Made by a program: the position numbers and the translations under genes. Below the pieces are notes generated by a model. It did not search any database and was not told the DNA's origin. It was given only the letters and a program-made list of their open reading frames with translations. DNA of 25,019 nt from IMG/VR virus record IMGVR_UViG_3300023179_000485, positions 1-25,019 of that record. The stretch is one strand, 5' to 3'. Shown piece after piece: positions 3,762 to 19,895 of the stretch. The number at the start of each line of letters is the position of its first letter. Within the stretch, counting starts at the first letter, position 1. The DNA is from a virus.

Positions 3762-4793
3762 ATGTCACAAAAAAAGTACGATACATTAGTTTATATTGGT
3801 CGTTTTCAACCAATTCATTCCGCTCACGTTGAAACTATTAGACGTGCGACATTGTTGGCTCGACAAGTAGTTATCATTGTTGGTAGTGCTGATCAGCCCA
3901 GAACTTATAAAAACCCTTTCTCCAGCCAGGAACGTGAAGGAATGATTCGAATGTCATTGAATGGCGTTGGTGACAAAAATTGTGCCATTAGGGTTGAGCA
4001 TAATATTGATACAATTTACAATGACCAAGCCTGGGCAGGAAGAGTTCAGGCAATTGTACAAAAACACAATCATGGTCTGGGCCCAGTGGGTATCATTGGG
4101 CACGACAAGGATGACACAACTTTTTATTTGAAAATGTTTCCACAGTGGGGTCGTGAAGAGGTTGAGCTTATTGAACCATTGAATGCCACTGATATTCGTG
4201 ATTTGTATTTCCGAGCTGATGCCAATTTAAAATTCCTGTCACCGGTGGTGCCTGAAGCTGCATTTACTTTTTTGTCTAATTTCAAAGACACTGCCCCCTA
4301 TGCACAGATCTTGCGTGAGCGAGAGTTTGTGATAAACTATAAAAAGCAATATGCCAGCCTCCCGTATCCCCCGATATTTTCCACATCAGACAGCGTAGTT
4401 ATACAAAGTGGGCACGTTCTTATGATTAAACGCCGCAGCGAACCCGGAAAAAACCTAATGGCTTTACCTGGTGGATACGTCAATGCATCAACTGATAAGA
4501 GCGTGTTGGATGCTGCAATTCGAGAGCTTCGAGAAGAAACTGGCATTAAGGTTCCCGAGCCAGTTCTGCGTGGTAGCATAGTTGACAATCGAGTGTTCGA
4601 TGCTATAGATCGAAGCCCACGTGGTCGTATCATTACTCATTGTTTTAAAATTGTATTGGCAGATGGGCCGCTGCCAAGAGTAAAAGGTGCCGATGATGCC
4701 CTACGCGCTAAATGGATCCCTATTGCAGAAATACGTCGTGATGAGTGTTTTGAGGATCATTACGAAATTATCTCTTGGGCTCTGGGCAGCTAA
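3762..4793 (+). CDS. nadM: Bifunctional NMN adenylyltransferase / Nudix hydrolase
   Basis: Two-domain enzyme of the NadM-Nudix type known from Synechocystis and large phages such as KVP40. The N-terminal domain (about 1-185) is a nucleotidyltransferase that turns NMN plus ATP into NAD+: GRFQPIHSAH at 13-22 is the HxGH-type ATP site and NATDIR at 141-146 matches the ISSTxIR position. The C-terminal domain (about 205-343) is Nudix, with GGYV at 237-240 and RELREETGI at 254-262; the family cleaves ADP-ribose to AMP and ribose-5-phosphate. The loop between GG and REL has two extra residues and a Lys where the first box Glu is usual, but the metal-binding REL-EE core is intact. GGAG lies 7 nt before the ATG. 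It works with nadV (11929) and nadE (18918). Confidence 0.92.
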   Translation: MSQKKYDTLVYIGRFQPIHSAHVETIRRATLLARQVVIIVGSADQPRTYKNPFSSQEREGMIRMSLNGVGDKNCAIRVEHNIDTIYNDQAWAGRVQAIVQKHNHGLGPVGIIGHDKDDTTFYLKMFPQWGREEVELIEPLNATDIRDLYFRADANLKFLSPVVPEAAFTFLSNFKDTAPYAQILREREFVINYKKQYASLPYPPIFSTSDSVVIQSGHVLMIKRRSEPGKNLMALPGGYVNASTDKSVLDAAIRELREETGIKVPEPVLRGSIVDNRVFDAIDRSPRGRIITHCFKIVLADGPLPRVKGADDALRAKWIPIAEIRRDECFEDHYEIISWALGS

Positions 4794-6550: not shown

Positions 6551-6856
6551 ATGAAAAGTAACATACCTACACTTAAAAATCATAATCCTGTACTTGTTGC
6601 TACTCACATTCCTTCTTATCCAATTAACCCCGGGTCTTGGAAAGAGTATCTACTAACGTTAGAACTATATTACCACAATTCGTTCTATGATACAACTAAA
6701 ATGGATATGAAGAAGGTAAATGATCTGATGCAAGAACGATACCCAGGACCGTATTGTGTTGTAGAAAAGTTATTAACAGATAGAATGGTTATTGGATTTA
6801 GTTTAGAATTTGACGATCTCAACGAAGAAATTTTTTGGTTGTTGAGGTGGTCATGA
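6551..6856 (+). CDS. LRWS-tailed array protein 1 (101 aa)
   Basis: First of fifteen linked genes. The body is unlike the others (LELYYHNSFYDTTKMDMKK), but the end, a short acidic stretch followed by EEIFWLLRWS, is the shared tail. The last 15 bases, TTGAGGTGGTCATGA, encode LRWS-stop, supply GAGG as the next gene's Shine-Dalgarno and contain its ATG. It starts 5 nt after the macro-domain gene. Function unknown. Confidence 0.78.
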   Translation: MKSNIPTLKNHNPVLVATHIPSYPINPGSWKEYLLTLELYYHNSFYDTTKMDMKKVNDLMQERYPGPYCVVEKLLTDRMVIGFSLEFDDLNEEIFWLLRWS

Positions 6857-7056
6857 AACGTTATAAAAACTATGTAACATTGCCATACGATCCTCTGTGG
6901 CAACCGCTTGATTGGGCTAAGACACATTGCCTAAGCTATATCACAAATGATGTTCATTATGACGGTCATTATTCGTTTGATAATCCAGACATTAAAGTTG
7001 ATTATTTTTTCTATGATGAAAAAGAAGCTCTTTTATTTGCATTGAGGTGGGCATGA
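6853..7056 (+). CDS. LRWS-tailed array protein 2 (67 aa)
   Basis: Aromatic-rich short protein ending FFYDEKEALLFALRWA. The pattern seen across the array is visible: helix with LDWAKTHC, a variable loop, an aromatic strand (VDYFFY), an acidic turn (DEK) and a final helix with LRW. The ATG at 6853 overlaps the previous stop, with GAGG 5 nt away; an in-frame ATG at 6835 lies inside the previous gene and is less likely. Function unknown. Confidence 0.75.
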   Translation: MKRYKNYVTLPYDPLWQPLDWAKTHCLSYITNDVHYDGHYSFDNPDIKVDYFFYDEKEALLFALRWA

Positions 7057-7352
7057 ACAACGTTATTCTACCGATGATTAGGCAAGTTATGCCCAATATT
7101 ATTGCTAATCAAATACTAGGTGTTCAGCCGATGGCTGCGGGCACGGGCAGTATTTTTAATATGGCATTTGGCGATAAAAAGTACAATAAGAAATACTGGC
7201 CTTATCAATATACTGTTGATCGTGCTGCATATAAAGAAGCAGAACGTTGGTGTTGGGAACGCTTCAAAGGAAGGTACTGGAGCAGTTCGGGACAACGGTT
7301 TGCATTCAAGCGTAGCGAGGATGCTGCTATATTTGCATTGAGGTGGTCATGA
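7053..7352 (+). CDS. LRWS-tailed array protein 3 with gp23-like N-terminus (99 aa)
   Basis: Residues about 4-40 (with PNIIANQILGVQPM at 14-27 and TGSIF at 31-35) match from memory the conserved segment of T4 gp23-type major capsid proteins, R-x2-P-x-LIA-x2-I-x-GVQPM followed by PTG-x-IFA. Residues about 47-99 are a normal array domain (ERWCWERFKG, then AFKRSEDAAIFALRWS). So this is a chimera of a capsid-protein fragment and the array tail. It is far too short (99 vs about 500 aa) to be a capsid protein. The ATG overlaps the previous stop and has the usual GAGG. Confidence 0.75.
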   Translation: MNNVILPMIRQVMPNIIANQILGVQPMAAGTGSIFNMAFGDKKYNKKYWPYQYTVDRAAYKEAERWCWERFKGRYWSSSGQRFAFKRSEDAAIFALRWS

Positions 7353-7570
7353 TTATTCGAGGTGACCACGAAGCATTAAACAACGCCGCAATCTGGCTCA
7401 GACAAGAACTGGATATTCCTCCTGAACGAACGATATTTAAAGAGTTTGAGAAGTATTTTAATTGCAAGATTACAGTAGCAGATCCAACAGATCCTTGGTA
7501 TATGCCAGATTCGGTTGAGTTTCTATCTGATCACGATGCGGTAATATTCTTGTTGAGGTGGTCATCGTGA
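7349..7570 (+). CDS. LRWS-tailed array protein 4 (73 aa)
   Basis: N-terminal helix (NNAAIWLRQELDI), a middle with DPTDPWYMPD, then a tail FLSDHDAVIFLLRWSS. Its end is TTGAGGTGGTCATCGTGA: three extra bases (TCG) follow the usual TCA, so the next gene starts with GTG instead of ATG. Function unknown. Confidence 0.73.
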   Translation: MIIRGDHEALNNAAIWLRQELDIPPERTIFKEFEKYFNCKITVADPTDPWYMPDSVEFLSDHDAVIFLLRWSS

Positions 7571-7722
7571 ATTATTGGCAATATAATGGTGTTGCGCCGT
7601 TTGATGAAATTTGGAATTGGTGCTTAAAACATATTAAAACTCAGGTCTACACCAACGATTGGGAAACACTTTACTTTACCGATGAAAAGGCGTATATATT
7701 CTTTCTACTGAGGTGGCAATGA
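7567..7722 (+). CDS. LRWS-tailed array protein 5, minimal form, GTG start (51 aa)
   Basis: The shortest member and a good guide to the core domain: helix FDEIWNWCLKHI, strand ETLYFT, acidic turn DEK, final helix ending FFLLRWQ. It fills what would otherwise be a gap in the chain. The start is GTG at 7567, 8 nt after GAGG and overlapping the previous stop (GTGA); its stop overlaps the next ATG. No ATG is available in a suitable position. Confidence 0.72.
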   Translation: MNYWQYNGVAPFDEIWNWCLKHIKTQVYTNDWETLYFTDEKAYIFFLLRWQ

Positions 7723-8021
7723 TATTGTCAAGAACCGAATTTGCTGAAATGTTTAATAGTATTAGATCGGGTCTAGGTGACGACAGTTCTGTTTTATGGG
7801 AAGCAGAATGCGATATACCCCATTGCCAATGGTTTGTACAAGTTAGGCCACTTGACATTTCTGGCAAGAGACATGGATATAAAAACACATACTGGAGTTG
7901 GTGTGATCAAAATCTAACGGGGAAAACACGATGCTTTAGCAGTAACATTGCCGGTTCGGAAGAATGGTGGGGATTCACCAATAAAGACGACATAGTTTTG
8001 TGGATGTTGAGGTGGTCATGA
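7719..8021 (+). CDS. LRWS-tailed array protein 6 (100 aa)
   Basis: Longer body with several Cys and Trp residues (CDIPHCQWFVQVRP, YWSWCDQNLTG), then WGFTNKDDIVLWMLRWS. It starts at 7719 in an ATGA overlap behind GAGGTGGCA. Function unknown. Confidence 0.73.
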   Translation: MILSRTEFAEMFNSIRSGLGDDSSVLWEAECDIPHCQWFVQVRPLDISGKRHGYKNTYWSWCDQNLTGKTRCFSSNIAGSEEWWGFTNKDDIVLWMLRWS

Positions 8022-8272
8022 GCAATTTAACATTGACACGCGAAGATATTTGTCATCATACTCCACCGTGCGAAATAACTGAATGGCTAGAATTTACTGT
8101 AAGTAATTATAGAACATACCATAGAGCATATCATTGGTTGCGAGAAGTACGTAATCAAAGGGTTGTCTTTTCAGATGGTGTTAAAGATGAGAATGAAAAT
8201 TATACAGGGGAATACAAGTTTAAGTTTTTGTGCAAACATGAATTCATATTGTTTGCATTGATGTGGTCATGA
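8018..8272 (+). CDS. LRWS-tailed array protein 7 (84 aa)
   Basis: Contains ITEWLEFTVSNYRTYHRAYHW and ends KHEFILFALMWS. The Arg of the tail is Met here: the codon is ATG instead of AGG, which also weakens the downstream Shine-Dalgarno to GATGTGG. This is one of three junctions where the ribosome-binding half of the motif has drifted while L-x-W-S is kept. Confidence 0.72.
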   Translation: MSNLTLTREDICHHTPPCEITEWLEFTVSNYRTYHRAYHWLREVRNQRVVFSDGVKDENENYTGEYKFKFLCKHEFILFALMWS

Positions 8273-8478
8273 AAACTATATTCGTTAATAGAGATAATTG
8301 GACCAAATGCTTTTCTCATGAATATTCGTTAACAGGACAATGTAGTGGAAAAGCAGTTAAAGAAGCACTTGCTGAAAAATACGGCATAGAACATTGGTTA
8401 AAAATCAACCTAGATGAATATAAGATAACTTTTATGTATGAAAAGAAAATGACTTATTGGGTATTGAGGTGGTTATGA
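8269..8478 (+). CDS. LRWS-tailed array protein 8 (69 aa)
   Basis: Small basic protein (VKEALAEKYGIEHWLKINL) with strand YKITFMYE and tail KKMTYWVLRWL. Lys replaces the usual acidic residues before the final helix. The junction is TTGAGGTGGTTATGA. Function unknown. Confidence 0.72.
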   Translation: MKTIFVNRDNWTKCFSHEYSLTGQCSGKAVKEALAEKYGIEHWLKINLDEYKITFMYEKKMTYWVLRWL

Positions 8479-8897
8479 GCTTTGCTAACATGCCACCCTG
8501 GCTTGATCCTAAGTGGCCAATTAATCATATAGAACAGGAAAAAATAATGGCAAAGTGGGAAATACATAAACGTGCAGGAAATTTGTTTGATTATGTTTGG
8601 TGGCGTTTTATGCCAGGGGTGACCATCAAAGTCAAATGGCCCGTGGGTGAAATTGTAGCAGGTCCAGGACCAAGTGATCCTCGGTGGTATGACTTAGGTG
8701 GTGCTTCATATGTCAAATTTGAATCGGCTGATCCAAACGACCATTATAGGCCAACCCTTGAACAACAGGTTGGTCGGCAAAGATGGGATTGGAATTGGCG
8801 CCTAACAGGTAATGACGCCGAAACTAATACCTTGACAATAAAATTTCGTCGTGGCAAAGAACAATATGCTACTTTGTTTTCTCTTAAATGGTCATGA
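8475..8897 (+). CDS. LRWS-tailed array protein 9 (140 aa)
   Basis: Longest member. It has a Pro/Trp-rich front (MPPWLDPKWPINHIE), a central segment PNDHYRPTLEQQVGRQRWDW that I believe recurs in small proteins of other large phages, a strand TLTIKF and the tail EQYATLFSLKWS. Lys (AAA) replaces Arg (AGG), so the next gene loses the GAGG yet keeps the ATGA overlap, consistent with translation by re-initiation. Function unknown. Confidence 0.75.
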   Translation: MSFANMPPWLDPKWPINHIEQEKIMAKWEIHKRAGNLFDYVWWRFMPGVTIKVKWPVGEIVAGPGPSDPRWYDLGGASYVKFESADPNDHYRPTLEQQVGRQRWDWNWRLTGNDAETNTLTIKFRRGKEQYATLFSLKWS

Positions 8898-9286
8898 TAG
8901 AAAAGTTAAAAGATTGGTATCTAACTTGGCGCACTGGATTATCTGCACAAGAGCGAGAGTGGCAGAAGTGGGAAGCAGAAAATATTGTACACCATGCCCA
9001 CACAATTGAAAATATGTTTATGAACTTTAAGTATATACTTCCAGTGTCTACTGATATATTTGATCTTAGTGAACCGTTTGGCTGGTATCCCAAGAAAGAA
9101 TTCCGTGAGTACCTGTATCCTGCACGGCAGTTAGGGGACAATGCAGTGTATTTCATTGCTCGTGGTTATAGAGATCAGTGGGATGGCAAGTTTCATCTCA
9201 ATGATTTGAGGCATGAGCAAGACCAAGTATTTGTGGCAACTAACAATGAGCAGGATGCATTAATGATAGCATTGAAATGGTCATGA
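8894..9286 (+). CDS. LRWS-tailed array protein 10 (130 aa)
   Basis: N-terminal charged, Trp-rich helix (WYLTWRTGLSAQEREWQKW), a central region with FGWYPKKEFREYLYP and a C-terminus QVFVATNNEQDALMIALKWS. The ATG at 8894 overlaps the previous stop; an ATG two codons earlier is also in frame. The tail uses AAA, so the next gene again has no GAGG. Function unknown. Confidence 0.75.
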   Translation: MIEKLKDWYLTWRTGLSAQEREWQKWEAENIVHHAHTIENMFMNFKYILPVSTDIFDLSEPFGWYPKKEFREYLYPARQLGDNAVYFIARGYRDQWDGKFHLNDLRHEQDQVFVATNNEQDALMIALKWS

Positions 9287-9501
9287 TGCCCGTTTATAAA
9301 AATAAAAGGTGGCAGATTCATCTTAGTCTTACTGACCCTGAGAGCATGTGGAAAACAGTATTTGAATGGTGCTGGGCCACATTTGGGCATCCTGGCACTG
9401 ATCCAGACACTGGTGTAAAAAGCAATTGGGATTATCACGGTGGCTGGATATACTTTTATGACGAAAAGTGTGTTACAATGTACATATTGAGGTGGTCATG
9501 A
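9283..9501 (+). CDS. LRWS-tailed array protein 11 (72 aa)
   Basis: Clear core domain: MWKTVFEWCWATFG helix, a short loop with GTDPDTG, strand GGWIYFYDEK and tail CVTMYILRWS. It starts at an ATGATG in overlap with the previous stop; the junction to the next gene is the consensus TTGAGGTGGTCATGA. Function unknown. Confidence 0.75.
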   Translation: MMPVYKNKRWQIHLSLTDPESMWKTVFEWCWATFGHPGTDPDTGVKSNWDYHGGWIYFYDEKCVTMYILRWS

Positions 9502-9707
9502 TGGATGTAGAATTTGACAAATTACATAAAGGTATTAGTTCTGGAGTTGACATTCAAGAAATAGGTCTTTGGCTAGATGGAAAGATGCCCAATCTTCCTT
9601 TACCAGACGAACAACATTGGACTATTGGCTATAGCACTGACGGTAGAGTTGGAATCAGATTTTCTGATGAAAAAGATGCCACGCACTTTATGTTGAGGTG
9701 GTCATGA
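9498..9707 (+). CDS. LRWS-tailed array protein 12 (69 aa)
   Basis: Body with VDIQEIGLWLDGKMPNLPLP, a strand HWTIGYS, a second strand VGIRFSDEKDA and tail THFMLRWS. Consensus junctions on both sides. Function unknown. Confidence 0.75.
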   Translation: MMDVEFDKLHKGISSGVDIQEIGLWLDGKMPNLPLPDEQHWTIGYSTDGRVGIRFSDEKDATHFMLRWS

Positions 9708-10030
9708 ATACAAAAAATAAGTGTATAGATATACAAGATGCTTGGGAAAGTGCCAAAAATAAATCTACAATAGATGCTAAAATTGCTGATGAAATGTCAG
9801 CGGCAATACAAAGAGCAATTGATTGGGATATACTTAGCGAGATGCTAGAACAAATGGGGTGGACGAAAGTAGAATTTACTAATACTAATAGTTTAAGTAC
9901 TCAAAAAACTGAAGAAATTAAAGAATGGAACGATGTTAACTGCCAAGGAAAAGTTAAATCATACGATGGCGCTATTTGGATGTTTGAACACAGCAAAGAT
10001 GCTGTGTTGTTCACATTAAGGTGGCTATGA
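9704..10030 (+). CDS. LRWS-tailed array protein 13 (108 aa)
   Basis: N-terminal helical half (AKIADEMSAAIQRAIDWDIL, then EMLEQMGWTKVEF) and a C-terminal core domain (EEIKEWNDVNCQGKV, then IWMFEHSKDAVLFTLRWL). The W-x3-NCQGK then aromatic-FE-x2-KDA-x-LF pattern is, from memory, seen in proteins of other T4-like phages, so this is probably the ancestral-type member. The junction is TTAAGGTGGCTATGA. Confidence 0.75.
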   Translation: MNTKNKCIDIQDAWESAKNKSTIDAKIADEMSAAIQRAIDWDILSEMLEQMGWTKVEFTNTNSLSTQKTEEIKEWNDVNCQGKVKSYDGAIWMFEHSKDAVLFTLRWL

Positions 10031-10281
10031 AACCGAAACCCTGTGAATTACAGAAAATGTTGAGCCGAGAATGGCAAGAATTGGGACAGTACACTGGACC
10101 TTGGCCTATTACACCTCAAGCACGATTCATCACAGGAAATGCAACACATGACGCACAACTGCATCGGGTAATGGTTGAATATGGCATAGAGCTGGATATT
10201 GATTCAAGATTCAATGAGATTAAAGATTATCGTATTGTTGATGAACAGAAGTTCATAATGTTTGCATTGAGGTGGTTATGA
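10027..10281 (+). CDS. LRWS-tailed array protein 14 (84 aa)
   Basis: Front CELQKMLSREWQELGQY, middle ATHDAQLHRVMVEYGIELD, tail RIVDEQKFIMFALRWL. The junction to the final member is TTGAGGTGGTTATGA. Function unknown. Confidence 0.73.
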   Translation: MKPKPCELQKMLSREWQELGQYTGPWPITPQARFITGNATHDAQLHRVMVEYGIELDIDSRFNEIKDYRIVDEQKFIMFALRWL

Positions 10282-10502
10282 AGATAGTAAATCTAAGACA
10301 ATATCCAAAATTTTGGAAAGAATTTACTGAATGTTTATCAAAATACGATGAACTAAACATTAGCCACGTATCTTCTTCAAGAGCAACTTATTTACTACAA
10401 GATAAGTTCGATTTATACGTTAAATCGAGAGTTGGGTCCGACTTTACTAGTGTAGAAATGGATGATGAAGAATATGTTCTGTTTTTGCTAAAATTTATGT
10501 AA
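10278..10502 (+). CDS. LRWS-tailed array protein 15, last in chain (74 aa)
   Basis: Ends DDEEYVLFLLKFM, with Lys-Phe-Met instead of Arg-Trp-Ser and codons AAA-TTT-ATG, so no Shine-Dalgarno is encoded. No gene follows in overlap; a new promoter begins 13 nt downstream. This is what one would expect if part of the tail conservation is driven by the next gene's ribosome binding site. Confidence 0.73.
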   Translation: MKIVNLRQYPKFWKEFTECLSKYDELNISHVSSSRATYLLQDKFDLYVKSRVGSDFTSVEMDDEEYVLFLLKFM

Positions 10503-10514
10503 AATCAGAGCAAT

Positions 10515-10543
10515 TTGACAAATAATGGGAGATATATTAAAAT
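10515..10543 (+). promoter_or_regulatory. sigma70-like promoter of the metallopeptidase gene
   Basis: TTGACA (10515-10520), 17-bp spacer, TAAAAT (10538-10543). It marks a new transcription unit after the array. Confidence 0.65.
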
Positions 10544-10568
10544 ACTGATATCACAGCAAGGAACCACC

Positions 10569-11009
10569 ATGGAATACAAATTAGAAGCCAGTAGCAAAAA
10601 AGTGCAAAAGTTTTTGAATTCCATTATGCCATCAATCATTGAGCAGTTGGGGTTGACTCGCAGCCATCGAGCAGTTTTGGTCAAAATTGATGCCGACATC
10701 TATGATGGCATGGAAGGTGCAACCATGAACATGGAATTTGCAAATTGCTATTTGGTGCTTATTAAGTCACCAACCCGTGTTACCAAAACTAGTTTGCTTA
10801 ACTTGGCTTTGACCTTGGTTCATGAAATGGTGCATGTTCGACAATTGGCCAAAGGAATGTTAAAATTTCTGCCCAACAATCGTCGAATTTGGATGGGCAA
10901 GACCTATGGCAAAAATGTCAAATATTTGGACCAACCATGGGAATTGGATGCCTATGCTCGCCAAGAAATCGTATTACGACGAGCCATTGAAAGTTACAAT
11001 GACCAATAA
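10569..11009 (+). CDS. Zinc metallopeptidase-like protein (HExxH)
   Basis: HEMVH at 85-89 is a zinc-binding HExxH active-site helix; Glu125 in PWELDAYAR, about 36 residues on, is a plausible third ligand and is placed as in SprT- or IrrE-like minimal peptidases. 146 aa, single domain, no signal peptide, so cytoplasmic. The ATG at 10569 follows AAGGAACC; the frame is open upstream but that part overlaps the promoter. It overlaps the next gene by 11 bp. The substrate is unknown. Confidence 0.75.
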   Translation: MEYKLEASSKKVQKFLNSIMPSIIEQLGLTRSHRAVLVKIDADIYDGMEGATMNMEFANCYLVLIKSPTRVTKTSLLNLALTLVHEMVHVRQLAKGMLKFLPNNRRIWMGKTYGKNVKYLDQPWELDAYARQEIVLRRAIESYNDQ

Positions 11010-11382
11010 AACTGCATGGAGCCATTTGCCAAACGCGGCGCATATTGAACGTTTATTGGCATCAGTAAAAGCTCACCCTGAACAATGGACTACAGCCACG
11101 GACGCGTCTTGGAATACTGCTCTAGACCTGGCTTGGCATGCGTCTTATGATGCGGCTTGGGATGCGGCTTATGATGCGACTTGCACCGTCGTGGCTCGGG
11201 CTTCGGCTCGGTATGCGGCTTGGGGTGCAATCGCAGCACTCGTTGTCTATGATGATTGTTCCCAATATCTCAGCATGACAAGTGATCAATTACGTGTTTG
11301 GGCAATACTCAGCGAAAAACCAGCAGCAATTTTATTATTGCCTGCTGTGATTGCATTTGAGAAAATTAGTGAATTGAAATAA
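10999..11382 (+). CDS. WSHLP-family Ala-repeat protein, copy 5 (127 aa)
   Basis: Displaced member of the family at 1107-2844: [20 protein letters not shown] at the front, an Ala-rich middle (ASYDAAWDAAYDA), then YDDCSQYLSMTSDQLRVW and PAAILLLPAVIAFEKIS. It is about 8 kb from the others and overlaps the metallopeptidase gene by 11 bp. The ATG at 10999 aligns with copies 1 and 4; the frame extends upstream but only as an antiphase read of the peptidase gene. Function unknown. Confidence 0.8.
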   Translation: MTNKTAWSHLPNAAHIERLLASVKAHPEQWTTATDASWNTALDLAWHASYDAAWDAAYDATCTVVARASARYAAWGAIAALVVYDDCSQYLSMTSDQLRVWAILSEKPAAILLLPAVIAFEKISELK

Positions 11383-11432
11383 ACGCCCTTAAAGTTAGGG
11401 TAATTCAGAGTTTATATGAGAGTTAAGTTCTA

Positions 11433-11639
11433 ATGAAACTTAAAGAAAATTTTATGATAGCCCAAAGGTTTGTGATTTATCAGGATACCATGGTTTTACT
11501 CACTGACTATACTTTTTGGAATGAACACTACGAAGAATTAAAGGAATGGTGCAATCTGAACTACATAGATCTTAGCGGTATGCTGGTCAATTTGAAAACA
11601 GTCAATAATAGGGATTTTTTTATATTAAAATGGAGTTGA
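11433..11639 (+). CDS. LRWS-tailed protein 16 (68 aa)
   Basis: Core-domain features (EELKEWCNLNYI helix, then VNNRDFFILKWS) separated from the main array by 930 bp. The tail codons AAA-TGG-AGT provide GGAG as the Shine-Dalgarno for the GTG start of the next gene, a different solution to the same coupling. Function unknown. Confidence 0.72.
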   Translation: MKLKENFMIAQRFVIYQDTMVLLTDYTFWNEHYEELKEWCNLNYIDLSGMLVNLKTVNNRDFFILKWS

Positions 11640-11640
11640 T

Positions 11641-11823
11641 GTGAATAATACCATTGATCTTAAAAAATTAGATAGTGCAGAAGTCATTAAATGGTGTCGT
11701 GATGTATTTGGTGACAACGACATTATGGTCCCTTATAATCAACGCAGGTGGGTAACTTTTCGTAGTTATCTAGTAATACGAGACGAAAATGATTACTGCA
11801 TGGCCTGTCTAAAATGGCTTTAA
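11641..11823 (+). CDS. LRWS-tailed protein 17, GTG start (60 aa)
   Basis: Minimal member: AEVIKWCRDVFG helix, strand RRWVTF, acidic turn RDEND, tail CMACLKWL. The GTG at 11641 is 5 nt after GGAG. As the last gene of its unit, its tail codons (AAA-TGG-CTT) encode no Shine-Dalgarno, as in member 15. Function unknown. Confidence 0.7.
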   Translation: MNNTIDLKKLDSAEVIKWCRDVFGDNDIMVPYNQRRWVTFRSYLVIRDENDYCMACLKWL

Positions 11824-11928: not shown

Positions 11929-13299
11929 ATGTCAAAACTTAATAGCATTATTACCGATACCGATTCGTACAAGGTATCAATGTGGAAACAGTACCCACTA
12001 AGAACTGAATATGTTTATTCATACATTGAATCGCGTGGTGGCAAATACGACCGCACTGAATTCCTTGGTGTTCAAGCACTTGCTAAGTATCTTGCAACTC
12101 CAATTACACAGGAACAAATCGACCATGCAGAGAAAATTTGGACACTACACGGAGAACCATTCAATCGAGTGGGTTGGCAGTACATTCTCGACAAGCACAA
12201 TGGAAAGTTGCCGCTTAGAATCCGCGCAGCACGTGAAGGACTTATTATCCCAACTAAAAATGTACTTTGCACTATCGAAAATACCGACCCCAATTGTTAC
12301 TGGCTTACCACATGGGTCGAAACGGCTGCACTTCGGGCAATTTGGTATCCAACCACAGTTGGCACGACTTCGTGGCACATCAAGCAAGAAATTCTAAAAT
12401 ATTTGGAGAAATCTGGTGACCCTACTACTATTGGTTTTAAGCTGCACGACTTTGGTGCTCGCGGTGTTAGCTCTTTGGAAAGTGCTGGAATCGGGGGCGC
12501 TGCACACCTTGTCAACTTCATGGGCACTGATACTATGTCTGGCGTTCTGTGGGCTATGGATGTTTACGGCTGCGACGTGTCTGGTTTTTCTATCCCAGCA
12601 GCAGAACACTCAACCATTACAAGCTGGGGTCGAGACAACGAAGTCGAGGCCTACAGAAACATGCTTACAAATTTCGCTGGGCCCGGGTCCGTTGTTGCAG
12701 TCGTTTCCGACAGCTACGATATATTCAATGCCTGTGAACTGTGGGGAACAGAACTAAAAGATGATGTTATTAACTCTGGTGCAACTGTGGTTATCCGTCC
12801 TGATTCTGGTGACCCGGTTGAAGTGTTACCCAAGATGTTTAGGATCCTTGGCGAAAAATTTGGATTCATCAAAAATGCCAAAGGCTATAAGGTACTCAAC
12901 AATGTTCGCATTATCTGGGGCGATGGTATCAATTCCATATCTCTTTCTAGCATCCTTCGAACGGTCGTTGATGTGGGAGGCTGGAGTGCAGATAACCTAG
13001 CATTTGGTATGGGCGGGGGACTGTTACAACAATGTGACCGTGACACCCTGAAGTTTGCTATGAAAGCATCGTCAGCAAGGGTAAATGGCGAATGGCGTGA
13101 TGTGTTCAAAGACCCAGTAACTGATCCAGGCAAGGCTTCTAAGAAAGGCCGTGTTACACTTTTTAAAACGGAGTATACCGGTGAGTACTACACCGGGATC
13201 GAGGACTGGCGCAAGGATGAGTTTGAAACTTACTACGAAGATGGCGAAGTTAAATTCACACAGACGTTTGAACAAGTGAGAGCAAACAGTAATGCGTGA
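11929..13299 (+). CDS. nadV: Nicotinamide phosphoribosyltransferase (NadV/NAMPT)
   Basis: Full-length (456 aa) type II PRTase converting nicotinamide and PRPP to NMN, the first step of the short NAD+ salvage route. Visible motifs: TDSYKVSM at 11-18, the active-site His227 in AEHSTITSWG, SDSYD at 260-264 and the phosphate-binding RPDSGDP at 290-296, followed by the GDGI and GMGGGL segments. AAGGA precedes the ATG. The NMN it makes is the substrate of the NadM domain encoded at 3762. It overlaps the next gene by 8 bp. Similar nadV plus nadM-Nudix pairs are known in large phages such as KVP40. Confidence 0.95.
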   Translation: MSKLNSIITDTDSYKVSMWKQYPLRTEYVYSYIESRGGKYDRTEFLGVQALAKYLATPITQEQIDHAEKIWTLHGEPFNRVGWQYILDKHNGKLPLRIRAAREGLIIPTKNVLCTIENTDPNCYWLTTWVETAALRAIWYPTTVGTTSWHIKQEILKYLEKSGDPTTIGFKLHDFGARGVSSLESAGIGGAAHLVNFMGTDTMSGVLWAMDVYGCDVSGFSIPAAEHSTITSWGRDNEVEAYRNMLTNFAGPGSVVAVVSDSYDIFNACELWGTELKDDVINSGATVVIRPDSGDPVEVLPKMFRILGEKFGFIKNAKGYKVLNNVRIIWGDGINSISLSSILRTVVDVGGWSADNLAFGMGGGLLQQCDRDTLKFAMKASSARVNGEWRDVFKDPVTDPGKASKKGRVTLFKTEYTGEYYTGIEDWRKDEFETYYEDGEVKFTQTFEQVRANSNA

Positions 13300-15380: not shown

Positions 15381-15446
15381 TAATGCTTGCTAAGTTTAGA
15401 TACAGCAAATTTTCAAATAAACCAAACTAAACTGAAAGGAAATAAA

Positions 15447-15929
15447 ATGAATGCATTTGTTGAGGCAGTTAAGACTGTACCCAAAGAAGTCCGCACCGAC
15501 AACGGAATGAAGACTTTTGACTCTAGCAAGAGTGATCTTGTTGACTTGTTCTTCTCTATTGGTGCAAATCGCGGCAAAGACTTGAGTACTCAATTCAATC
15601 GTGCTCTTGCACAAGACGAAACTCTGGCACTACGCATGTTGATGTGGGCCCGCGATATCCGTGGCGGGGCAGGCGAACGAGAAGTTGTTCGCAAAATTCT
15701 GTTGAATCTAGAGCAGACCAACCCCGCTGCATTAGCTCGTGTACTACCACACTTGCCAGAATTTGGTCGGTGGGATGATATGCTGATCTTCCAAACCAAG
15801 CCCGTCAAGGAGCAAGCATTTACCATGATTGGTGATGCAATCCGCGAGGCTCAAATGGCAAAGCAACTTTTAGCCAAAATCGACTCAATGAGCGAAGAAG
15901 AATGTACTAAAATTCTAAGTGATATGTAA
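15447..15929 (+). CDS. TROVE-like (Ro60-type) protein, N-terminal part
   Basis: Corresponds to the N-terminal half of phage TROVE/DUF2828-type RNA-binding proteins: DLFFSIGANRGKDL, MLMWARDIRGGAGEREV and LPEFGRWDDML are family hallmarks. It ends at 160 aa, just after the segment that normally runs into the central domain; the rest resumes at 16857 behind an inserted homing endonuclease. AAAGGA precedes the ATG at 15447. Ro60-type proteins bind misfolded or Y RNAs through this helical-repeat part. Whether the separate halves assemble into a working protein is unknown. Confidence 0.8.
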   Translation: MNAFVEAVKTVPKEVRTDNGMKTFDSSKSDLVDLFFSIGANRGKDLSTQFNRALAQDETLALRMLMWARDIRGGAGEREVVRKILLNLEQTNPAALARVLPHLPEFGRWDDMLIFQTKPVKEQAFTMIGDAIREAQMAKQLLAKIDSMSEEECTKILSDM

Positions 15930-16706
15930 CTTACATTTAGAGAAATGATATCTAGACATGCCGTTGCTTCCCCCGGTTTTATGGCAATAAGGGCATGTTA
16001 ACAAAGATTTTGGTTGACGTAACTTGTTCAGTGTCTCTTCTGAATGCATTTTGCCTCCATTCTTTTTTATAGTTTCTTTTTGTTTCTGGATACTATCAGC
16101 AGACCGTTTATTAGTACCATTCTTGTACTTGGTTATATTTGCTTTTTCAATGCTTTCTTTAGTACTATTAGTCTTACCAAGTGTTCCATTTTTACGTTTA
16201 GTTTCTAAACCGGCTATGATGCTTTCTGGAGTATTGGCGTTCATTGTATTATTTTTACGTTTAGTTTCTAATGATTTTGCAATAACTTCAGCAGTTTGAA
16301 CATTCAGTGTCCCATTTTTCTTTTTAGTCTCAATAGATTTTCTAATACTATCATTAGTGTTTGTGTTTAAGTTCCCTCTTATTTTTCTAGTATTAATTCT
16401 TTTTTGATGACTTTCAGTTGTTAGTAAAAATCCACCGTCTCCTGACTCAGGTTTTAAATTTGCCCACTCATCACTTGCCACTATGTTCCACTCTGTGCTT
16501 AACTGTTCGCCCATTAATTTAATATCACTTTTATTATTTGACTCAAATACTATTGTAGTGGAATAATTAAACCCATGTTTTTTAAGATGTAACAACCAAT
16601 AAGTCCCCGAACCGGTATATTTGTGATAATCTTTTTGTTTTGTGAACCCGAAATATTTGAGTCCGGTGATATTATGTGTCTTAACATAAAGATAATAAAT
16701 ACACAT
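15915..16706 (-). CDS. Homing endonuclease, GIY-YIG-like with NUMOD-type repeats
   Basis: N-terminal YYLYVKTHNITGLKYFG (4-20) and KYTGSGTYWLLHLKKHG (29-45) are the form of GIY-YIG-like catalytic domain found in phage homing enzymes. Residues about 105-215 contain several ETKxKNGT units, resembling NUMOD3-type DNA-binding modules. The C-terminus has a zinc finger (Cys238, Cys241, His254, Cys258). AAGGAG lies upstream of the start on this strand. It is antisense to and between the two TROVE parts, and overlaps the last 15 bp of the first. Family role: it cuts alleles lacking the insertion so that the gene spreads. Confidence 0.82.
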   Translation of the reverse strand: MCIYYLYVKTHNITGLKYFGFTKQKDYHKYTGSGTYWLLHLKKHGFNYSTTIVFESNNKSDIKLMGEQLSTEWNIVASDEWANLKPESGDGGFLLTTESHQKRINTRKIRGNLNTNTNDSIRKSIETKKKNGTLNVQTAEVIAKSLETKRKNNTMNANTPESIIAGLETKRKNGTLGKTNSTKESIEKANITKYKNGTNKRSADSIQKQKETIKKNGGKMHSEETLNKLRQPKSLLTCPYCHKTGGSNGMSRYHFSKCKLHIT

Positions 16707-16788
16707 GCTGATTGCTCCTTGTAAAAATATAGCACTTAGAGTTCTTGGGTACGACCAATACCGCGAAGAACATTTTTACCCAAATCAC

Positions 16789-16817
16789 TTGCGTTTACCG
16801 CAATAATCAAGTATAAT
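16789..16817 (+). promoter_or_regulatory. Promoter within the insertion, driving the vWA part
   Basis: TTGCGT (16789-16794), 17-bp spacer, TATAAT (16812-16817), 40 bp before the downstream part of the split gene, which also has its own AGGA site. The remaining intergenic sequence (16707-16788) shows nothing else I can support. Confidence 0.65.
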
Positions 16818-16856
16818 ATTATTTATACGAAACAATTTTAAATAGGATTTAATAAT

Positions 16857-17912
16857 ATGCAAACAGCCAAAGAACAACTTCGACAAAAACTCAATGAGCA
16901 ATTGATCAACGGACAAACTGCTGCAAAGTGGACTCCGCGTGAAAAGTCTTCTAAAGGAAAAGTAGCACAGGAAATACGTGAGTTCTTTGGTATGAGCCCA
17001 AAGTTTTATCGTCGTAGTCTAGCTGATCTGTCAGAAACAGTAGAAGACTTAATGTGCAGCAAACAATGGGATTCGATCAACTTTGGTAAGGTGCCAAGTG
17101 TTGCTGCTAGTCGTTATCAAAAAGCCTTTGCACGTAACTCTACTACATATGCGAAATATAAAGAAGGTCTTGTGAATGGAACTGAAAAAATTTCAGCAGG
17201 TGCTGTTTATCCCTACGATGTCATCAAGTCTCACAAGCATGGTGGTGATCACACTGTGATTCAAGCCCAATGGGATGCATTGCCTGACTATATCGGTGAT
17301 GAACTGGTGTTGCCAATGTGTGACGTAAGCGGCAGCATGAGCACTGCCGTTGGAGGAAACTCTAACCTGACCTGTATGGATGTTTGCGTCAGCTTGGGGT
17401 TATATCTGGCTGATAAGAACAAAGGTCCGTTCAAGGATATGTTCTTGACCTTCTCTGACAAGAGCAAGATCGAAGTGTTAAGGGGTAACCTGTTGAGCAA
17501 GCTTGCACAGTTGCAAAAGGCAGATTGGGACATGAGTACAAACTTGCATGGAGCATTTGAAGAAGTGTTGCGTGTAGCTGTAGCAGGCAAAGTTGATCAG
17601 AAGGATATGCCACGGTATATTCTAATTATGTCAGACATGCAGTTCAATGCGTGTGTTCGACATGATGACTCTGCCATGCAGATGATCGAACGCAAGTACA
17701 GCTCAGCAGGTTACGAATTGCCAAACATTGTTTTCTGGAATTTGAAAGCTAAGGCAGGTCAAAGCCCAGTTAAGTTTGACAAGAAGGGCACAGCGTTGGT
17801 TAGTGGATTTAGTCCCTCTATCCTTAAGAGTATCCTGGCTGCTGAGGATTTGACACCTGAAGCAGTGATGTTAAAGACTTTGAACGATCCACGTTATGCT
17901 GTAATTGCATAA
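16857..17912 (+). CDS. TROVE-like protein, C-terminal part with vWA domain
   Basis: Residues about 20-125 complete the TROVE-type module (KFYRRSLADLSETVEDLMC, NFGKVPSVAASRYQKAFAR, then AGAVYPYDV). The rest is a von Willebrand A domain with the metal-binding DVSGSMS at 156-162. 351 aa; with the 160-aa first part the sum (about 511) fits an intact family member. AGGA precedes the ATG, and an in-frame stop (16839) separates it from the insertion, so it is a separate translation product. The reading frame is intact, indicating it is maintained after the split. Confidence 0.82.
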   Translation: MQTAKEQLRQKLNEQLINGQTAAKWTPREKSSKGKVAQEIREFFGMSPKFYRRSLADLSETVEDLMCSKQWDSINFGKVPSVAASRYQKAFARNSTTYAKYKEGLVNGTEKISAGAVYPYDVIKSHKHGGDHTVIQAQWDALPDYIGDELVLPMCDVSGSMSTAVGGNSNLTCMDVCVSLGLYLADKNKGPFKDMFLTFSDKSKIEVLRGNLLSKLAQLQKADWDMSTNLHGAFEEVLRVAVAGKVDQKDMPRYILIMSDMQFNACVRHDDSAMQMIERKYSSAGYELPNIVFWNLKAKAGQSPVKFDKKGTALVSGFSPSILKSILAAEDLTPEAVMLKTLNDPRYAVIA

Positions 17913-17975: not shown

Positions 17976-18773
17976 TTAGATATGGCATTGTGATTGTTTG
18001 GATTTGGTCAATGCACCAAAATTCACTGGCCATTCTTTACCTATAGGTAATTCTTTAGATCTGGGTGGTAATTTAAACTCAACACCTGATTTTTTTATGA
18101 TTTCCGACACAGGCATTCTTAGTTTAGTTAAGTCTGCCCCCAAATCCTCTCGATGTGGAAACCACCATCCTGCAACTTCCAGAGTTTTATTATTGATAAC
18201 TATCTTATAAAAGGCATGAGGTACTATAACTCCTTTGCCAATTCTAGGATCTTGGTCACTATAGACGTTTCCAACATAAATGGTAAAGGGTTGCCCAAGT
18301 TGTATTGACCAAGCACGAACACTGGTTTCCAATAACTTCCAAGTGCCTCTGTTGAGCCCAGGCAATTGTGGTGACATATTAGTCATCAAGAAACTCTCAA
18401 ATTCCACTTGTTGGTCCCAGGATAAATCACCGTCGGGGCTCATGTGCCCTTTGTCATAGCCTGTGCCAGCATAATCTTCCGGGGTAGCACCGTTGACTAC
18501 TGAACGATCAGTGGCAAACCCATTGGATCTAGCAACACAGCCCAAAGCATGTTGCGTAGTCAATGAATAAGTTACAAATGCCGGTATTTTTGCCTGAGCA
18601 TCATAACCTACAAAATATCCTTGACGACAAATGGTATTTAGTTTTTGTGATGCTTTTGGAAAACCCCAAGGACTATGTATTTGGCATTGTATTTTCGGTA
18701 GTGGATCCCGCTGAGACCAAGCATTGGCTAAACCGCCACAGTGCAACAACAAGACGAATAAAATTAATCTCAT
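17976..18773 (-). CDS. Exported DNA/RNA non-specific endonuclease (NucA-like)
   Basis: beta-beta-alpha-metal nuclease: the catalytic DKGH (a DRGH variant) at 107-110 in YDKGHMSPDGD, then FLMTNMSPQ (128-136) and LNRGTWKLLE with the metal-binding Asn141. The N-terminus is a signal peptide (MRLILFVLLLHCGGLANA), cleaved probably after Ala18. The ATG at 18773 is chosen because GGAG lies just upstream; a TTG ten codons earlier would spoil the signal. 265 aa. Secretion points to the periplasm or outside. It is one of two - strand genes and stands alone between a terminator and nadE. Confidence 0.87.
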   Translation of the reverse strand: MRLILFVLLLHCGGLANAWSQRDPLPKIQCQIHSPWGFPKASQKLNTICRQGYFVGYDAQAKIPAFVTYSLTTQHALGCVARSNGFATDRSVVNGATPEDYAGTGYDKGHMSPDGDLSWDQQVEFESFLMTNMSPQLPGLNRGTWKLLETSVRAWSIQLGQPFTIYVGNVYSDQDPRIGKGVIVPHAFYKIVINNKTLEVAGWWFPHREDLGADLTKLRMPVSEIIKKSGVEFKLPPRSKELPIGKEWPVNFGALTKSKQSQCHI

Positions 18774-18865
18774 AAAAACTCCAATAAGTATTTTATTTAC
18801 CAAAGAAAGTAAATCCCTATGATCTTTAGTTCACAGGTAGTTTACTTAATAACGGCAAAATACAA

Positions 18866-18895
18866 TTAGCGTTTTATCTTTTTATATTGTATAAT
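18866..18895 (+). promoter_or_regulatory. nadE promoter
   Basis: TTAGCG (18866-18871), 18-bp spacer, TATAAT (18890-18895). The -35 is weak. The ribosome binding site AAAGGTGAT follows. Confidence 0.5.
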
Positions 18896-18917
18896 GTTCA
18901 GTAGAAAAGGTGATAAC

Positions 18918-19895
18918 ATGTCAGAGTTCAAGGAACAAATTTTAAAATATAGTAGACAAGAAACCCTGGTGCCACTTAGTATTTGGTTCGACCAAAAATT
19001 GGACCAATTGATGGGGTCGGGTGATTTTATGAAAGAATCCAATTTAGCCTATGCTGGGCATGTATTGGATGCACGGCTTCAACTATACAGCAAAAAATAT
19101 GGTATCAATAAGGTGGTTGTTGGTATGAGTGGTGGAGTGGACAGTGCATTGACCGCAGCTTTATTCAAAGAAGCGGGCTGGGATGTCACTGGTGTCACCA
19201 TGCCCATACATCAAAATCCCAATGAAACCAATCGTGGCATTGACACATGCAAAGTATTGGGTATCAACCATAAGCACATTGATTTAACCAACACTTATGA
19301 AAAAATGTTAGCCAGTATGGCTGAATCAGACCCCAGCATACTAAATGAAGATCAAAAGCTGCGTCGAGGCAATTTAAGAGTCAGGTTGCGTATGATGACT
19401 ATTTATAATCAAGCCAGTGCTGTGGGTGGACTAGTGGCCAGTACAGATAATTTCAGCGAATTGGCAGCAGGTTTTTGGACATTGCATGGTGATGTAGGCG
19501 ATTTAGGTCCTATACAAAGTTTAAATAAAAGTTGGGAAGTCCCCAAGCTAGCTGAGATCTATGGTGTTCCATCGCATACAGTGTTTGCAACTCCTACAGA
19601 TGGTTTAGGAATTTCGGAAAGTGATGAATCCCAATTCGGGTTCAGCTATTTGGAATTTGATATTGTTCTTATGTTAGCTATAAAGGGTATGCCTTTTGAC
19701 AGTGTGTATACTAGACAAAAAATACTGGATTATTTAAAGGTGCCAGAGCAAGAACTTGCTAAAGTAAATAAAATCTTAGACCGAGTCAAGTTTAGTGCAT
19801 TCAAAAGACAAAATCCTTATAACTTATCACATCCTATACTTAACAGATATTCTGGGCTAGCATCAATTGATTCTGGTCTTTGGTTACCTGATTAA
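18918..19895 (+). CDS. nadE: NAD synthetase, ammonia-dependent
   Basis: Adenine-nucleotide alpha-hydrolase fold enzyme that amidates nicotinate adenine dinucleotide to NAD+ with ATP and ammonia. The PP-loop SGGVDSA is at 71-77; RGNLRVRLRMMTIYNQA, STDNFSEL and GDVGDLGPIQSLNKS are family-specific dinucleotide- and ATP-binding segments. No glutaminase domain is present, so ammonia is the donor. 325 aa, somewhat longer than the bacterial NH3-dependent form (about 275) because of the N-terminal extension. The ATG at 18918 has AAAGGTG upstream. It adds the nicotinate branch to the nadV/nadM set. Confidence 0.93.
   Translation: MSEFKEQILKYSRQETLVPLSIWFDQKLDQLMGSGDFMKESNLAYAGHVLDARLQLYSKKYGINKVVVGMSGGVDSALTAALFKEAGWDVTGVTMPIHQNPNETNRGIDTCKVLGINHKHIDLTNTYEKMLASMAESDPSILNEDQKLRRGNLRVRLRMMTIYNQASAVGGLVASTDNFSELAAGFWTLHGDVGDLGPIQSLNKSWEVPKLAEIYGVPSHTVFATPTDGLGISESDESQFGFSYLEFDIVLMLAIKGMPFDSVYTRQKILDYLKVPEQELAKVNKILDRVKFSAFKRQNPYNLSHPILNRYSGLASIDSGLWLPD

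Follow-up and report, generated by a model that had tools for sequence, protein, structure and literature searches.

The stretch analysed here, 25,019 nucleotides of viral DNA (IMG/VR virus record IMGVR_UViG_3300023179_000485, positions 1 to 25,019; hereafter the window), contains an array of 17 short genes whose products share a C-terminal part ending in an LRW-type motif, termed here the LRW domain, behind N-terminal parts (fronts) that vary from gene to gene. All 17 were confirmed as open reading frames (ORFs), 15 of them chained at 6551-10502 and two nearby at 11433-11639 and 11641-11823. In the chain, consecutive genes overlap by 4 nucleotides at each junction (ATGA or GTGA). A sequence-only reading of the window had proposed these 17 genes and their common C-terminal end, and the proposal was borne out by an independent profile, which was made from 53 relatives from other phages with the window rows removed and was searched against the 161 window ORFs of at least 40 residues. 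This leave-window-out profile recovered 15 of the 17 genes with expectation values (E) from 1e-14 to 0.013, the best other ORF having E 0.34; a chance origin of the shared ending is rejected by this result. Gene 1 gave no match and gene 15 only E 0.69 in the same search, and their membership is based on the tail and the position in the chain, for gene 1 also on a homologue recognised by eye in L207. No other window ORF had an LRW-type ending, save three regex matches that were out of frame and riddled with stops. The genes are listed below, where E refers to the leave-window-out profile, L numbers denote loci of other phages, and the homologues in these loci were assigned by eye.

6551-6856, plus strand: gene 1, 101 residues, ends LLRWS; evident homologue at L207 8651-8953
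6853-7056, plus strand: gene 2, 67 residues, LRW domain; E 6.5e-9; homologues at L129 4645-4851 and L128 6657-6854
7053-7352, plus strand: gene 3, 99 residues, capsid segment (residues 1-37) followed by the NKKYWPYQ body and the LRW domain; E 9.9e-15
7349-7570, plus strand: gene 4, 73 residues, LRW domain; E 2.3e-5
7567-7722, plus strand: gene 5, 51 residues, the shortest member, GTG start; E 5.3e-10; homologues at L201 4746, L205 7966 and L207 9147
7719-8021, plus strand: gene 6, 100 residues; E 3.8e-5; front kept at L129 4331-4666 and L207 9428-9727
8018-8272, plus strand: gene 7, 84 residues, LMWS tail; E 3.6e-6; homologue at L205 6538-6918
8269-8478, plus strand: gene 8, 69 residues; E 0.0055
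8475-8897, plus strand: gene 9, 140 residues, the longest front, LKWS tail; E 3.8e-4
8894-9286, plus strand: gene 10, 130 residues, LKWS tail; E 0.013
9283-9501, plus strand: gene 11, 72 residues, the member modelled; E 2.7e-12
9498-9707, plus strand: gene 12, 68-69 residues; E 2.7e-8
9704-10030, plus strand: gene 13, 108 residues, front with the second capsid-like segment; E 4.5e-10
10027-10281, plus strand: gene 14, 84 residues; E 0.0092; homologues at L130 5619-5873 and L207 7243-7512
10278-10502, plus strand: gene 15, 74 residues, last of the chain, degenerate tail LLKFM; assigned by tail and position only
11433-11639, plus strand: gene 16, 68 residues; E 4.3e-5; homologues at L205 4130 and L207 10113
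11641-11823, plus strand: gene 17, 60 residues, GTG start, LKWL tail, no following gene; E 2.3e-6

The AlphaFold2 model of gene 11 (59 sequences) indicated that the shared C-terminal part is a whole beta-alpha-beta-beta-alpha domain, with a predicted local distance difference test score (pLDDT) of 87 and a predicted template modelling score (pTM) of 0.70. The model consists of a strand at residues 10-13, a helix at 19-34, two strands at 49-52 and 55-58, and a helix at 61-71, within which the LRW motif lies. The most conserved positions of the domain are a W in the first helix, two F, and the terminal L-[RK]-W. The same fold elements were modelled with high confidence at residues 51-98 of gene 3. 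The earlier description of a core made of a WC-containing helix, an aromatic strand, a DEK-like turn, and an LRW helix agrees with the gene 11 model; the ending is indeed common to the genes, whereas the extent first assigned to it, a tail of about 20 residues, had to be enlarged to the whole domain of about 50 residues. The domain had no significant family match in Pfam, NCBIfam, or PHROGs, and its fold had no relative among the PDB structures. Fold matches in BFVD were unannotated proteins alone, nearly all from uncultured Caudovirales phages. A common domain carrying variable pieces and belonging to no described family, as had been supposed, is therefore what the library, PHROG, and PDB comparisons support, and no description of such an array was found in the literature searched, mostly freely accessible papers without bioRxiv preprints. 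That reading also suggested docking, localisation, or stability as putative roles of the domain. The chain encodes small phage proteins that form a new family, its common basis being one beta-alpha-beta-beta-alpha domain with [RK]W at the end of the C-terminal helix.

Chains of LRW-domain genes are common in uncultured T4-like phages. T4-like phages of up to 354 kilobases were reached through contigs with a relative of the macro-like gene upstream of the array, and when whole records were scanned, 16 of 22 had members, many of them chained. After further scans, 541 distinct member sequences had been collected, and one region holds up to about two dozen members (24 in L205, 22 in L126). In the 50,697 deposited phage records, neither blastn nor tblastn, the latter with members used singly or concatenated, detected a homologue, tblastn being weak for short divergent proteins; nor did a search of 84,980 bacterial and archaeal genomes with one body as the query. 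When gene 3 itself was used to scan viral contigs, no relative turned up; the relatives came via other members.

The nucleotides that encode the ending also have a place in the translation of the next gene, as seen at the first junction.

6842-6856, plus strand: first of 14 junctions, typical TTGAGGTGGTCATGA; Shine-Dalgarno match in the LRW codons, next ATG overlapping the stop

The anti-Shine-Dalgarno sequence at the 3' end of 16S ribosomal RNA is complementary to GAGGTG. At most junctions, the LRW codons TTG AGG TGG hold this 6-nucleotide Shine-Dalgarno match a few nucleotides before the overlapping start, and a few junctions deviate with LKW, LMW, or TTAAGG variants; the approximately 15 nucleotides common to the junctions are coding and Shine-Dalgarno sequence. 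Across the family, the tail arginine is encoded by AGG in 122 of 157 members with a following gene versus 5 of 26 without one (Fisher p 1.4e-8, with members treated as independent despite shared ancestry), and AGG accounts for 10% of internal arginine codons. The GAGGTG match and the tie of the AGG bias to a following gene are what would be expected if the LRW ending were a mere by-product of the Shine-Dalgarno sequence for coupled translation, devoid of protein meaning. However, we consider this scarcely credible, because members without a following gene still end in LKW, or in LRW written with CGN codons, the conserved region spans the whole fold, and the window genes were recognised by a profile from the sequences of other phages. 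As the tail is kept where no gene follows, its conservation is at the protein level and it was co-opted as a ribosome-binding site. Furthermore, in four aligned sequences with a DLDVNSFYPH front, the nonsynonymous divergence (dN, 0.04-0.07) was well below the synonymous one (dS, 0.25-0.62), and these are therefore maintained proteins. Conservation limited to the junction sequence, which the sequence-only reading had named as an outcome that would overturn it, is thus not what these two results show. A junction-only origin of LRW is refuted as the sole explanation and holds only as a second layer in the DNA. A C-terminal motif that also provides the ribosome-binding site for the following gene is a clear example of one sequence carrying two messages.

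Bodies exchange their N-terminal segments, and two different regions of the major capsid protein (MCP) are the source of some of these. The fronts had been regarded as unrelated, but this does not hold for all of them: homologues of many are present in other phages, and some can be recognised as pieces of phage proteins. The two capsid-derived segments in the window are the following.

7053-7163, plus strand: MCP N-arm (Gol-region) segment of gene 3, aligned to T4 gp23 at about 91-127
9770-9874, plus strand: second capsid-derived segment, in gene 13; front type IDxEIL...GWTxVE, or more loosely IDxxIL...MGWTxVE, alignment A7

Gene 3 matched the Pfam family Gp23 (PF07068) with E 1e-10 and 42.1 bits, the curated cut-off being 24.4, and its front showed 57% identity over 37 residues with the MCP of a relative (E 2.6e-11). 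Against an MCP profile gene 3 reached E 6.5e-16, whereas 9,300 shuffled family sequences reached E 0.05 at best. Only positions 5-61 of the approximately 376-position Gp23 profile, which represents a full HK97-fold protein, are covered; with this partial coverage and a length of 99 residues, gene 3 is therefore not a capsid protein. The same codon was used at 10 of the 21 residues shared with the MCP, and since residues are shared while codons have mostly diverged, the protein sequence is what is kept. The Gol peptide, which we take to occupy residues 93-121 of T4 gp23, lies inside the region matched by the front of gene 3.

This fusion was found in at least 17 contigs (gene 3 and at least 16 others; E 3e-17 to 4e-3) on three different bodies, namely the NKxYWPYQ body (L128, L205, and L215 besides gene 3), the YxFSRA body (L129/L255, L198/L264, L232, L233/L234, L243, L244, L245, L246/L247, L250, L257, and L259), and a third body (L285/L286). 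The same bodies occur elsewhere without the capsid segment (L130 5431, L018 11059, and L128 6439) or with another front. Among 2793 distinct small ORFs of the member loci, 20 matched the MCP profile and all were LRW-family members, including one that an alignment-end cut-off had labelled a non-member and that we counted as a member with its ending ILRWL. The front of L235 1378-1713 resembles a hybrid between the MKxDDLI type and the end of a capsid segment (TGTIFKMRYY), possibly a recombination intermediate.

The capsid assignment of the gene 13 front rests on its front group, A7, rather than on gene 13 by itself. The A7 alignment ranked the MCP first among 372 proteins of the relative G004 (hhalign E 1.1e-4 per comparison, the next 4e-3), and the match falls on an MCP helix aligned to T4 gp23 at about 283-310. 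Sister fronts matched the MCP profile directly with E 2e-4 to 4e-3 (L215 5718, L222 2559, L246 2897, and L259 1701), two of them reaching into the preceding MCP motif, from about T4 position 247 onward. For the "MGW" fronts, HMMER comparison with the MCP stayed at noise level, but after the profile-profile ranking and the direct matches of sister sequences their rejection no longer stands.

Other fronts recall phage enzymes. On the YxFSRA body in other phages, a GRQTGKS-like P-loop segment was observed, usually followed by an NLCKEI motif (11 and 12 members). The latter resembles the active-site motif of ribonucleotide reductase, and G004 has SNLCCEILLP in an ORF of 773 residues. One member with the same body starts with DLDINSMYA, to be compared with MDINSLYPS in a DNA-polymerase-like ORF of 901 residues in G004. 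D[VI]NS[MF]Y starts, which resemble this polymerase-like motif, were also seen on fronts of three different bodies (L127 2427-2756, L137 1784-2077, and L215 4007-4357). The P-loop-fronted relatives, 110-160 residues long, had no significant match to an ATPase family, and their Walker A-like motif is not accompanied by the rest of a DnaB, RecA, or terminase type ATPase core. An origin of these fronts from a P-loop ATPase, a ribonucleotide reductase, and a DNA polymerase is suggested by motif only. That all fronts are copies from the phage's own genome is rejected for most of them; only the capsid segments were significant against the 1,633 ORFs of one relative.

The array is surrounded by NAD salvage, RNA ligase, and macro-like genes, and these are not head genes. 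According to Pfam, the nicotinamide adenine dinucleotide (NAD) genes encode a bifunctional nucleotidyltransferase-Nudix protein of the NadM type (3762-4793), a nicotinamide phosphoribosyltransferase (11929-13299), and an NAD synthase (18894-19895); gene sets of this kind that rebuild NAD are used against NAD-depleting defences. A second paralogous family of about five copies lies at 1107-2844 and 10999-11382, one copy standing between genes 15 and 16. Its members have alanine-rich hypervariable repeats in the middle (DAAWDAA, YAARDAA) and conserved ends (WSHLPNAxHI ... SDQLRVWAxLSE ... AFEKIS). Just past the chain, 10515-11009 encodes a protein with an HEMVH zinc-protease-like motif that matched only PHROGs of unknown function. 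A DUF2828/DUF7788 gene at 15387-17912 is apparently split, its second half being matched in Pfam; between its parts, an opposite-strand ORF (15915-16706) reads like a GIY-YIG homing endonuclease; Pfam gave no match to this ORF at E 0.01. The gene at 17976-18803, among the few long ones on the minus strand, encodes a DNA/RNA non-specific endonuclease (Endonuclease_NS, E 2e-36) that seems to have a signal peptide. Terminator-like sites were not more common in the array region than in shuffled sequences.

Gol is a 29-residue segment of gp23 that binds domains II and III of EF-Tu, and no other part of gp23 is as conserved (PMC3014915). Capsid proteins trigger bacterial immunity through Lit (PMC3014915), CapRel (PMC9712102), and Thoeris (PMC11312562). 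The LRW domain may serve as a stable scaffold on which a variable front and a variable surface are presented so that host proteins are bound during infection. The front from the capsid Gol region would either bind EF-Tu or keep a sensor for the capsid protein occupied, and we infer that capsid segments could compete for EF-Tu or for capsid sensors. Duplication and the capture of new fronts would yield new specificities, and the array would supply decoys for host takeover and counter-defence. A role in host takeover and counter-defence is favoured because the array does not lie among head genes and capsid proteins are known triggers of immunity. These results suggest that the array is a so far undescribed toolkit, made up of decoys or of proteins that bind the host. 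The explanation as a whole, a new family in which a scaffold with exchangeable fronts provides decoys for host takeover and counter-defence, is drawn from sequence and is tentative; we regard it as possible, short of an even chance.

Several observations weigh against it. The front of gene 3 was modelled with low confidence and as partly helical. The P-loop, ribonucleotide reductase, and polymerase resemblances amount to short motifs, and their profile scores are weak (PHROG DnaB E 0.03-0.06, ribonucleotide reductase 0.31); because of these scores, the three kinds of front were treated as leads. Compared with the proteome of a relative, the non-capsid fronts stayed within the shuffle control or matched other members, so that only some fronts are traceable; as tracing works only for pieces conserved well enough to be recognised, the seeming preference for functional motifs may be an effect of ascertainment. 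In addition, the Gol peptide activates rather than blocks Lit in Escherichia coli, and a decoy would therefore need a changed or shielded peptide. A wider form of the decoy explanation, which we think unlikely, is that large T4-like phages keep an evolving library of mini-proteins, whose scaffold would present copies of conserved segments from the phage's own capsid protein and enzymes so that host factors and sensors meet decoys first. If true, such a library would be a phage counterpart of antigen display, used defensively.

The array could instead be a tandem family prone to recombination, whose near-identical junction DNA, together with homing-endonuclease activity, allows the in-frame capture of conserved-gene pieces at the N-terminus. 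Most fronts would then be tolerated and not selected as decoys, and the domain would have some other job, possibly structural or regulatory. To both halves of this account we give the same, rather low probability. It fits with the captured pieces, which coincide with highly conserved motifs (the capsid Gol region, NLCxEI, DxNSxY, and the P-loop), several such motifs being frequent insertion sites of mobile introns and inteins, and with the hybrid-looking front at L235 1378; the window itself has the homing-endonuclease-like ORF that splits the DUF2828/DUF7788 gene. However, the capsid fronts are old and kept at the protein level, judging from their amino acid identity and codon divergence relative to the MCP, they occur on three bodies and in no fewer than 17 contigs, and purifying selection was found in one aligned group. 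A role in capsid assembly, with the domain binding a head protein, the capsid segments regulating or capping assembly, and the other fronts binding other virion or replication proteins of the same phage, seems quite improbable to us. Both capsid segments come from conserved parts of gp23, the N-arm and spine regions of HK97-fold capsids are in contact with neighbours, and each MCP fragment found in a small ORF belongs to the LRW family, all of which such factors would account for; but they would leave unexplained the P-loop, ribonucleotide reductase-like, and polymerase-like fronts on the same body and the large number of paralogues, and the neighbours of the array belong to NAD and RNA metabolism rather than to the head genes.

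Unannotated genes that fill kilobases in uncultured T4-like phages are now given a fold and an architecture. If the captured fronts are decoys, they would point to the phage parts watched by immune sensors (the capsid N-arm and others) and would allow new sensors to be predicted from sequence. A natural stand-alone version of Gol also makes it testable why the Gol region is the most conserved part of gp23.

Among known systems, the Gp23 MCP family (PF07068, phrog_138) provides segments that front several members, and in gene 3, L128, L205, and L198 the match exceeds the curated cut-off; the fronted members differ from it in holding only about 30-60 of its residues and are not capsid proteins. 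In the Gol-Lit-EF-Tu exclusion system, Gol of T4 is a trigger of host defence and not a known phage tool, whereas gene 3, whose front aligns to the gp23 region carrying Gol, is a separate small protein with an unrelated domain, known from its sequence. The BFVD proteins (e.g., A0A6J5T1G0 and A0A6J5TA99), with a Foldseek probability of 1.00, template modelling scores (TM-scores) up to about 0.7, and 15-28% identity for the best ones, evidently belong to the same fold family as the modelled LRW domain, but they are unannotated and come with no described function, array, or captured fronts. Polymorphic toxin cassettes differ in that the constant part of the LRW array is C-terminal, its products are small phage proteins without trafficking domains, and immunity genes were not seen, nor was an integrase recognised in the window ORF list, in which no search aimed at integrases was made. 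For an integron-like cassette array, an integrase and attachment sites between the cassettes would be expected; what the LRW junctions have in common is the stretch of about 15 nucleotides of coding and Shine-Dalgarno sequence. What the LRW array shares with these cassettes and other modular arrays is the principle of joining one constant part to exchangeable parts.

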